Shown: positions 1-2,084 of the stretch, one piece after another
Position numbering within the stretch: position 1 is the first letter of the stretch
How the letters are laid out: each line of letters starts with the position of its first letter
Assembly (NCBI RefSeq): GCF_003814555.1
Contig: NZ_RKQN01000001.1
Location: 1,156,566 to 1,220,565, forward strand
Direction of reading: 5' to 3'
Source: Vulcaniibacterium tengchongense
GTDB lineage: Bacteria; Pseudomonadota; Gammaproteobacteria; Xanthomonadales; Xanthomonadaceae
DNA: 64,000 bases
The notes under the pieces: model-generated
What the model was told of the DNA's origin: nothing
Databases searched by the model: none
What the model saw: only the letters and a program-made list of their open reading frames with translations
Translations under genes and position numbers: made by a program

Positions 1-57
1 GGTGGCGATCAGTACGGCTCGGACATCGCCTTCGAGGAGGTGCCCGCGATTCCTTGA
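1..57 (+). CDS. 3' end of an unidentified gene
   Basis: Only the last 18 codons and the TGA stop are inside the window. The visible tail reads GGDQYGSDIAFEEVPAIP. The acidic stretch with an aromatic near the end faintly recalls single-stranded-DNA-binding protein tails, but that is too little to name the gene. It is followed at once by a strong hairpin and then by a phage/island-type DNA methyltransferase, so it probably belongs to the same mobile element. Confidence 0.45.
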   Translation, partial: GGDQYGSDIAFEEVPAIP

Positions 58-64
58 GTAACAG

Positions 65-100
65 GGCGACGAGCCGGTGCGGCAACACCGGCTCGTCGCC
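65..100 (+). terminator. strong stem-loop after the first partial gene
   Basis: A perfect 15-bp stem (65-79 with 86-100) closes a six-base loop, CGGCAA. It starts seven bases after the upstream stop codon. There is no T run behind it, so it is a terminator-like or mRNA-stabilising hairpin rather than a textbook intrinsic terminator. Confidence 0.5.
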
Positions 101-198
101 TCCACCCACGCGATCAGCCGCGTGCTTTCGGCCAAGGCCCTGCATCCTCCGCGGAGGAGCAGAGATTCTGGCCAGCACACATCGCACAGACTGAGACC

Positions 199-975
199 GT
201 GCCCAAGACCGACACTCTGTTTCCTTGGCCGGGCGGGAAAACCCGGCTCCTGCAGCACTTGCTGCCCCTGCTCTCTGACAACTCGCATACGACATACGTC
301 GAGGCCTTCGCCGGCGGCGCGGCGCTTCTGTTCGCCCGTGAGCCAGCCAAGGTCGAGATCCTCAACGACACGCACGGCGAGTTGGTCCGGTTGTACCGCG
401 TGGTCGCCAACCACCTCGACGAGTTCGTGCGCCAATTTCGCTGGGCACTGACTAGCCGCGAGATGTTCCGTTGGGCGAAGCTCCAGGATCCAGATACGCT
501 CACGGATATCCAGCGCGCAGCCCGGTTCTTCTACCTTCAACGGCTTGCCTGGGGTGGCAAAGTCGCCGGTCAGAACTTTGGCGCCAGCCGCGATCGGCCG
601 GCGCGGATCAATCTGCTCCGGCTAGAAGAGGAGCTGAGCAATGCCCATCTGCGGCTTCACCGTGTCGTCGTTGAGAACTTGTCCTGGCAACAGTGCCTGG
701 CCAAGTACGACGGGCCGAAGACCCTCTTCTTCCTCGATCCGCCTTACTGGCAAACGGAGGGCTACGGCGGCGACTTCGGCATCGAGGAGTACCAGCAGCT
801 CGCCGAGGCCGTCGCCAAGCTGAAGGGTCAAGCCATCCTGACCATAAACGATCACCCCGACATGCGGCGGCTGTTCGACCGGTTTCCTGGGCAGACCGTG
901 CCGATCCGCTACACGATCGGCGGCGGAGGCGGCGCTCAGCGGCGCGAGCGGATCTATACCCGCCTGCGAACCTGA
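199..975 (+). CDS. D12-class N6-adenine DNA methyltransferase
   Basis: Transfers a methyl group from S-adenosylmethionine to adenine N6 in DNA (Dam/MT-alpha, D12 class). The SAM-binding start FPWPGGKTR is at residues 8-16, the FxGG-type motif EAFAGGAALLF at 35-45, and the catalytic DPPY at 180-183. At 258 residues it has normal length. The start is GTG at 199 because no upstream ATG keeps these motifs in frame; the ribosome site is weak. No restriction endonuclease is visible, so it looks like an orphan enzyme of the kind carried by phages and islands. Base composition is lower in GC than the chromosomal genes from 2.1 kb onward, consistent with transfer. Confidence 0.9.
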   Translation: MPKTDTLFPWPGGKTRLLQHLLPLLSDNSHTTYVEAFAGGAALLFAREPAKVEILNDTHGELVRLYRVVANHLDEFVRQFRWALTSREMFRWAKLQDPDTLTDIQRAARFFYLQRLAWGGKVAGQNFGASRDRPARINLLRLEEELSNAHLRLHRVVVENLSWQQCLAKYDGPKTLFFLDPPYWQTEGYGGDFGIEEYQQLAEAVAKLKGQAILTINDHPDMRRLFDRFPGQTVPIRYTIGGGGGAQRRERIYTRLRT

Positions 976-1042
976 CCGACCACGTTGACTGGCGCCAATT
1001 GCTGGCCCACCCTCCGGCCATCTTCACGATGGTCGGAGGGGT

Positions 1043-1636
1043 ATGAAGAGGGTCGCGAGTTCAACTTGGCTCAGTCCTGAAGGTCCCTGGTACTTCAGTG
1101 CCTGTGCCTGGTCGGAGGGAGGCGGCTGGCAGCCCGAACACTGGTGGCGGTATGCGCACGGATTCAAGGCGGCTGGAGATCGCATCGTGGCGTCCGTGCT
1201 TGATGGGCGCCGCGGCGAGCTGGACCTTCTGTTGATGCCGACCTTGTACCTGTACCGGCACTACATCGAACTGGCCTGCAAGGCGGCGATTCGGGACATG
1301 TACACGCTTCGGGGCAAGCGGCCTCAGGTGAAGGCGAAGCACAGCTTGGAAGGCAGGTGGAAGCTGGCCTTTCAGTTGGTAGAGGAGTTGACGTGGGAAG
1401 TACCGGCATTTCCTGAGGCCGACCGCTTCGTTCATGAGTTGCAGCGCCACGATCCCGTATCGGAGGCTTTCCGCTACCCAGAGACGAAACATGGGGCCCG
1501 CACCGCGCCTGAACTTCGGTGGGTCAACTTCCGGCGGCTGGCGGATGGGATCGAGCACGTCCACGAGGCGGTGACGTATCTTGAAGGCTCGATCGACTAC
1601 CTCAAGGCGCACGGAGTCGAGGGTGCTGGACCGTAG
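1043..1636 (+). CDS. HEPN-like protein of unknown function
   Basis: A 197-residue soluble protein starting at ATG 1043, with GGAGG just upstream. I do not recognise a named family. The arrangement YLYRHYIELACKAAI (residues 69-83), then KHSLEGRW (99-106) and FRYPE later, recalls all-helical HEPN-type proteins of defence and toxin systems, including an R-x6-H spacing at R93/H100. It lies 67 bp after the DNA methyltransferase on the same strand and shares its lower GC, so the two may be one cargo unit. Whether it is a nuclease cannot be judged from sequence alone. The 231 bases after it (1637-1867) hold no convincing gene. Confidence 0.55.
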   Translation: MKRVASSTWLSPEGPWYFSACAWSEGGGWQPEHWWRYAHGFKAAGDRIVASVLDGRRGELDLLLMPTLYLYRHYIELACKAAIRDMYTLRGKRPQVKAKHSLEGRWKLAFQLVEELTWEVPAFPEADRFVHELQRHDPVSEAFRYPETKHGARTAPELRWVNFRRLADGIEHVHEAVTYLEGSIDYLKAHGVEGAGP

Positions 1637-1867
1637 GGAAAGTCTTACGACGCGGTGCGGTCATCGCCGACTGTTTCAACCCGGCCGGCAGGTCACGATG
1701 ACCATGCCCCGGATGCCAGGCCGCGGACGGGCTGCCAGGATGGTGGCTGCAACGTCAGTAGGGAGGCTGCGCCGGCACCGGGGCGCCTTTTCGCGGCAGG
1801 CCTTCGAGGGGCGGCTCGGGTCCGGTTACAGAGGCTTCAACGCGCCTTTACAATCCGGCCTGACGCT

Positions 1868-1914
1868 TGCGCAAGCCAGCTGTCGCCGATGCGCAAACCA
1901 GCTGTCGCCTTACA
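1868..1914. repeat. probable right end of a transposable element
   Basis: Two direct repeats of 20 bp, 1868-1887 and 1890-1909, differ at one base and are spaced 22 bp apart. They are followed by TTACA, so the end reads ACA at 1912-1914 (TGT on the other strand). Host DUF488 coding sequence starts exactly at 1915. Termini TGT/ACA with repeated subterminal sites are known for Tn7/Tn5053-type transposons, and TG/CA termini with repeats for IS21-family elements; both use Mu/TnsB/IstA-like DDE transposases. No transposase gene is visible in the 1.9 kb inside the window, so the family is undecided. Confidence 0.65.
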
Positions 1915-2084
1915 CCCGCCTCGGCCAGCGCCGCGCGCATCGTCTCGCCCGAGAACTGCGGATGGCGGCGCGAGCCGGCGAAGCGGCGCACGTCGGCCAG
2001 GGTGCGGATCCCGGCTTCGGCGAGCATGCCGAGAAAAGCCTGCCAGTCGCGGGTGGAGTGGCCGATGGTCCAGAGCGTGGGCAT
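1915..2084 (-). pseudogene. 5' fragment of a DUF488 gene, cut by the element end
   Basis: The first 57 codons of a DUF488-family protein start at ATG 2084: TLWTIGHSTRDWQAFL is at residues 3-18, then DVRRFAGSRRHPQFS, the typical N-terminal half. The similarity stops at ALAEAG, where the family expects a conserved YxxLPxLGG-type segment. Instead the frame runs into the transposon-end repeats and stops at 1848. The remaining two thirds of the gene is absent, so this is a broken remnant and marks the insertion site of the element on the left. Confidence 0.8.

Follow-up and report, generated by a model that had tools for sequence, protein, structure and literature searches.

Tandem repeats beside a split DUF488 gene in Vulcaniibacterium tengchongense as the probable right end of a Mu-like prophage

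In the genome of V. tengchongense (GCF_003814555.1), a coding sequence of the DUF488 family breaks off directly beside two near-identical direct repeats, which raises the question of what interrupted this gene. The window, i.e. the whole stretch of 64,000 nucleotides analysed here, covers C1:1156566-1220565 of a 1.41-Mb contig (C1, NZ_RKQN01000001.1). It was extended leftwards on the same contig (C1:1060001-1158700, 98.7 kb), and this extension overlaps the window by 2,135 bases at its start. The DUF488 gene was almost certainly interrupted by a Mu-like transposable prophage of 37,169 bp, whose attR end carries the repeats as sites R1 and R2.

Repeats and termini of the element

The two 20-bp direct repeats are located at 1868-1887 and 1890-1909, are 22 bp apart and share 19 of 20 positions. 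They are followed by TTACA (1910-1914) and then by DUF488 coding sequence; the junction reads ...GTCGCCTTACA|CCCGCCTCGG. The repeats, their periodicity and the TTACA at the gene boundary were already described in the initial annotation and are confirmed at these positions. On the minus strand, the inner repeat R2 (1868..1887) contains the core CGACAGCTGGCTTGCGC at 1869-1885 and the outer repeat R1 (1890..1909) the core CGACAGCTGGTTTGCGC at 1891-1907; both are putative right-end binding sites of a MuA-type transposase. TTACA, read inward on the minus strand as TGTAA, forms the right terminus of the prophage (1910..1914), and the right copy of a 5-bp target duplication, CCCGC, is found at 1915..1919. 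Taken alone, the repeat pair is only modestly unlikely, since dinucleotide shuffling of the window produced an equally good pair in 2 of 100 cases. Within the 64 kb, only one other place (from 33273, spacing 15) has a 20-nt pair with at least 19/20 identity at a spacing of 15 to 60. A search of the own genome for the pattern GGCGACAGCTGGYTTGCGC, allowing up to two mismatches, recovered R1 and R2 alone, each without mismatch; its backward control likewise gave two matches there. A search for distant DNA matches among plasmids with 1781-1921 as query returned none.

The mirror end was found in the leftward extension. It begins with TGTGACCCGACACCTGG, and the left junction, located left of a phage-like region, reads ...GGATGCCCGC|TGTGACCCGA. 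Identical 5-bp flanks, CCCGC, are present at both ends of the element (left copy L003:1306-1310, C1:1121306-1121310). Since the junctions at both sides carry this sequence, the element is delimited to C1:1121311-1158479 (37,169 bp). As indicated by the contig extension, the ends and the duplication, its right-hand 1,914 bp (1..1914, plus strand) lie in the window, which therefore begins with phage DNA; the other 35,255 bp (C1:1121311-1156565) are situated left of it. Both ends start with TGT. The G+C content of the element is 67.7%, versus 72.2% in the 30 kb to its left and 73.0% in the remaining window. According to the available part of PMC8705779, key features of transposable prophages are a 5- or 6-bp duplication, a length of 36-39 kb and transposition functions. 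All of these are found here, the duplication being 5 bp (CCCGC), the length 37,169 bp and transposition functions being encoded. A mirror end, a short target duplication and a transposase within tens of kilobases had been named initially as things to look for, and each of them is present.

The core CGACANNTGG occurs five times in the 37,169-bp element, always directed inward. The copies at the left end start at bases 8, 125 and 167 from that end, those at the right end at bases 8 and 30, counted inward. The left sites L1 (core CGACACCTGGAGTGATC), L2 (CGACAAATGGATTGCGC) and L3 (CGACACATGGATTGCGC) are more diverged than the right ones and were recovered with looser matching and a shorter core. 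Because the copy number alone is not unusual (5 versus a shuffle mean of 1.5 and a maximum of 6 in 200 shuffles), the argument for the sites rests on their place and direction. Outside the element, three copies are found in the remaining window, and the 61 kb left of the element are free of them. A matrix of the five sites scored these at 21.0 to 25.6 and the next place at 15.9, a separation that is partly circular, the matrix having been trained on the same sites. Apart from R1 and R2, its 20 top-scoring places include none close to the right end, so that a third right-end site is not evident.

The ends of phage Mu have three MuA sites each, with spacing and orientation unequal between the ends, and right ends with two sites each were used in the crystallised Mu complex (available part of PMC3562280). 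The prophage shares with Mu the presence of several sites at both ends, but differs in having three on the left and two on the right, all repeats of one motif. The TG/CA-ended transposing element with tandem subterminal sites that was proposed from the right end is borne out by both ends. In the record of phage Mu, the best right-end register is 22 bp (16/20). For the relatives, the registers, obtained without shuffle control, were best at 22 bp in phage HS6 (13/20) and at 21 bp in phage MuM16-1 (12/20), with a tie of 22 and 33 bp (13/20 each) in a Mizugakiibacter prophage. Since the own left end of the prophage reaches 13/20 at 30, only the value for Mu is above noise.

The interrupted DUF488 gene

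The 5' part of the gene (PF04343) is located at 1915..2084 on the minus strand, within a fragment (1851-2084, minus strand) matching profile positions 2-46 of 121. The 3' part (C1:1120930-1121310) was found directly left of the element on the same contig, where L003:933-1310 matches profile positions 43-119. The initial statement that the gene lacks its far side thus holds for the window, but this part is present in the genome, where it adjoins the left end of the element. Rejoining the flanks with one CCCGC yields an open DUF488 frame of 181 aa.

A search with the 3' part matched 19 of 60 genomes, the own genome included, and gave no match in 41. With the rejoined protein as tblastn query, of which the best piece per locus alone was taken, this piece crosses the junction in 18/18 loci of relatives. 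These pieces extend from query position 1-4 to at least 155 of 181 at 30 to 76% identity, the weaker ones being gapped. CGACANNTGG is present once in three of the 18 loci and absent from 15. Since it occurs at most once per locus, the repeat pair is found in none of these uninterrupted relatives. Another, complete DUF488 match is located on a different contig of the same genome.

Gene content and competing explanations

Gene calling was simple, with approximate starts; errors and omissions among the small ORFs are possible. An ORF across the L003/L002 boundary (C1:1139684-1140325) was left out of the family scans. The first genes encode, in this order, an HTH repressor, a Ner-like regulator, a phrog_2345 regulator, the transposase, a MuB-like ATPase, Gam and GemA. 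Next are genes for a phrog_724 exonuclease-type protein, a holin, an endolysin, a Mu gp27-type small terminase subunit and the large terminase, which matched phrog_2 in PHROGs and nothing in Pfam. They are followed by genes for Portal_Mu, a Mu F-like head protein, the Mu I protease, the gpT capsid and gp36. After these come a tail terminator, a tail tube protein, a tape measure protein and an 831-aa ORF, whose match to tail fibres is weak (E 5.2e-4), and further on a phrog_8917 protein. At the right tip, inside the window, a Dam-like methyltransferase and a 197-aa ORF are encoded. The Mu F-like head protein (L003:18484-19680) carries a C-terminal PBECR2 nuclease-like domain (residues 279-394, E 1.7e-17).

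The transposase (756 aa) matched phrog_310 (E 4.7e-104) and contains rve and Mu-transpos_C domains, as expected from the Mu-like DDE transposase predicted for this element. D302, D361 and E397 are present with D-35-E spacing. E397 is invariant in 7/7 aligned transposases; D302 and D361 are common to the six rows other than Mu, the Mu row being poorly aligned there. The MuB-like ATPase matched phrog_296 (E 7.6e-51).

As hallmarks of Mu-like phages, the available part of PMC8541194 names portal, gp36-like, virion morphogenesis, protease, major head, transposase, Gam, GemA and terminase proteins. These are encoded here, with the F-like one alone identified of the two virion morphogenesis proteins. 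Further hallmarks in the same text are a CI-type repressor, Ner, Mor or late activator C, and a Mup26-like protein. A repressor (phrog_8, phrog_4, HTH_3) and a second regulator (phrog_769 / HTH_35) were identified; we read the latter as Ner-like from its position and HTH type, its families indicating a transcriptional repressor or HTH protein only. The labels Mor/C activator and Mup26-like were not assigned to any of the 40 ORFs compared with PHROGs, a set that excludes some small ORFs. Only HTH families, and no S24 peptidase domain, were found in the repressor (L003:1895-2335, minus strand), which differs in this respect from the S24-containing repressor of MuM16-1 and from the mitomycin-inducible Mu-like phages covered in the available part of PMC8541194. 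By the correlation put forward in that text, mitomycin C may fail to induce the prophage.

By analogy with phage Mu, transposase subunits would bind L1-L3 and R1-R2, and the bound transposase would pair both ends of the element. Nicking beside the terminal CA would then allow the 3' ends to be joined to target DNA with a 5-bp stagger, a step in which the MuB-like ATPase may assist. The target would have been the DUF488 gene, split with CCCGC left on both sides. The ends, the arrangement of the sites, the duplication, the genes, the empty-site frame and a sister element are seen in the sequences themselves. Protein binding and strand transfer are presumed from the likeness to Mu, as is the viability of the phage.

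A different origin had been proposed initially: the repeats would mark a Tn7-like or Tn5053/Tn402-like transposon, whose cargo would be the genes on their left. The five solved-structure matches of the transposase, all to TnsB or TnsAB and none to MuA (best E 3.8e-12), point in this direction, as do the ATPase, which also reaches TniB (PF05621, 25 bits versus a cut-off of 22.4), the TGT at the ends and the 5-bp duplication. Such likeness to TnsB and TniB is to be expected among members of the Mu/Tn7/Tni superfamily. The strongest matches of both proteins are, however, the phage families given above, and the interior harbors phage regulation, lysis, head and tail genes. With phage structural genes inside the element, such a transposon is very improbable and was rejected; the supposed cargo of an undescribed element consists of Mu-like phage genes from repressor to tail.

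Even less probable is an IS21-family element, the other type of end that had been put forward. TG/CA ends with repeated subterminal sites occur in this family and are found here as well, but the transposase reached only 29 bits with the NCBIfam IS21 model (cut-off 160), and an element of 37 kb with phage genes led to the rejection of IS21 on size and gene content. The NCBIfam models for IS481, IS3, ISNCY and IS630 all remained below their cut-offs for the transposase. Equally slight is the probability that a decayed DUF488 gene has a tandem duplication next to it by chance. The two shuffled windows in 100 with a repeat of the same quality would agree with it, but not the mirror end, the target duplication, the rejoined frame or a sister element with similar layout, and the empty-site comparison led us to reject it. 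Evidence excluding a Mu-like prophage was not found. The locus is a clear case of a well-known phenomenon and leaves the understanding of Mu-like phages unchanged; a repeat pair 22 bp apart, ending with CA in a broken gene, can flag the end of a Mu-like prophage from raw sequence.

Relatives and the right tip

The element is contained in IMG/VR as IMGVR_UViG_2786546141_000002, judged to be the same prophage from its transposase, portal and 197-aa ORF (each 100% identical) and from its first and last 100 bases, which match the locus. This automated record covers C1:1121892-1158201 and is 581 bp short on the left and 278 bp on the right; trimmed in this way, it contains neither terminus and none of the five sites. 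For this prophage, the present analysis provides the exact boundaries, along with the target duplication and the likely transposase sites. The closest other transposase is encoded on a metagenome virus contig of 34,161 bp (IMGVR_UViG_3300011710_000032; 61% identity by tblastn, 62% in the alignment), on which the portal is only 29% identical and 786 bp are present upstream of the transposase gene.

A sister prophage of 36,000 bp was found in Mizugakiibacter sediminis (NZ_DF970196.1), with the ends TGTTCCCCGACACATGG and TGTAGCGCGCCATTTGG and the duplication TCGAA; it is apparently identical to UViG_2671180677_000002 of IMG/VR. It resembles the V. tengchongense prophage in transposase (54% in the alignment), portal (64%), a Dam-like gene adjoining the right end, CGACANNTGG sites, TGT ends, the 5-bp length of the duplication and a similar end layout. 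It differs in an outer right site diverged from CGACANNTGG and in the 197-aa ORF, for which the examined stretch gave no match.

In a collection of 50,697 phage records, 26 matched the transposase, each covering no more than 80% of it; the best match was Pseudoalteromonas phage HS6 (NC_070820; 35% over 76%, 34% in the alignment), which has AT-rich ends of other sequence. Escherichia phage Mu (NC_000929; 36,717 bp) has the same order of repressor, early regulator, transposase and transposition protein, the right-end repeat at 22 bp and TG at both ends, but its transposase is only about 20% identical and invertase, Com and Mom genes are located at its right end, where the Dam-like gene is found here. 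Shewanella phage vB_SspS_MuM16-1 (MZ568827), a Mu-like siphovirus according to the available part of PMC8541194, has a similar annotated gene order, a DNA adenine methyltransferase near its right end and TGT ends; its transposase is about 30% identical and its end sequence is different.

Among 149 genomes, the own one included, 32 matched the transposase. Since all matches other than the own were partial and did not exceed 39 bits, this sample contains no close sister. A transposase scan of genome contigs gave one relative, that in Mizugakiibacter, and a scan of viral contigs eight matches, one of them this prophage. Transposase and portal are encoded in opposite directions on one relative contig (G153), no portal match was obtained on another (G154), and the record RS1 begins and ends with other sequence.

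The window starts with the 3' end (1..57, plus strand) of a 190-aa ORF (L002:16050-16622, start approximate), for which no family was matched; a 660-aa ORF upstream of it matches phrog_8917, a family of unknown function. An adenine-N6 DNA methyltransferase of the D12 class, Dam-like, is encoded at 199..975 on the plus strand (PF02086, E 2.4e-23; phrog_56, E 3.2e-85). Homologues of this gene adjoin the right end in the Mizugakiibacter prophage (58%) and in MuM16-1 (55%), as found by tblastn. Between the methyltransferase and the right end, the 197-aa ORF (1043..1636, plus strand) had no match in Pfam, PHROGs, NCBIfam or PADLOC, none in the phage collection at E 0.01, and none by tblastn at E 1e-3 in the right-end stretch of Mizugakiibacter or in MuM16-1. 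In IMG/VR it was found in the same prophage only, and among 99 family genomes three matched, namely the own genome and two with weak matches inside much larger frames. Its structure, modelled from the single sequence, consists of helices only and is of low confidence (mean pLDDT 51.7). The ORF is possibly an accessory gene. None of the four right-end ORFs had a tblastn match in the stretch of a further relative contig (G151).

Tentatively, a lineage of Mu-like phages might comprise this prophage together with its sister in Mizugakiibacter and the relative from the metagenome. Its members would have GC-rich transposase sites, CGACANNTGG with NTTGCGC after it in most cases, and the stretch separating the Dam-like gene from the right tip would be a variable slot. 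The 197-aa ORF in this slot might be an unknown host-takeover or defence gene; we consider this reading as a whole doubtful.

A reverse transcriptase gene is located in the structural block of MuM16-1 (L055:20567-21523), with no such match among the ORFs scanned here; it is discussed as a possible retron-type element in the available part of PMC8541194. A perfect 15-bp inverted repeat with a 6-nt loop (65-100), directly after the ORF ending at 57, looks like a terminator-type hairpin preceding the methyltransferase gene.
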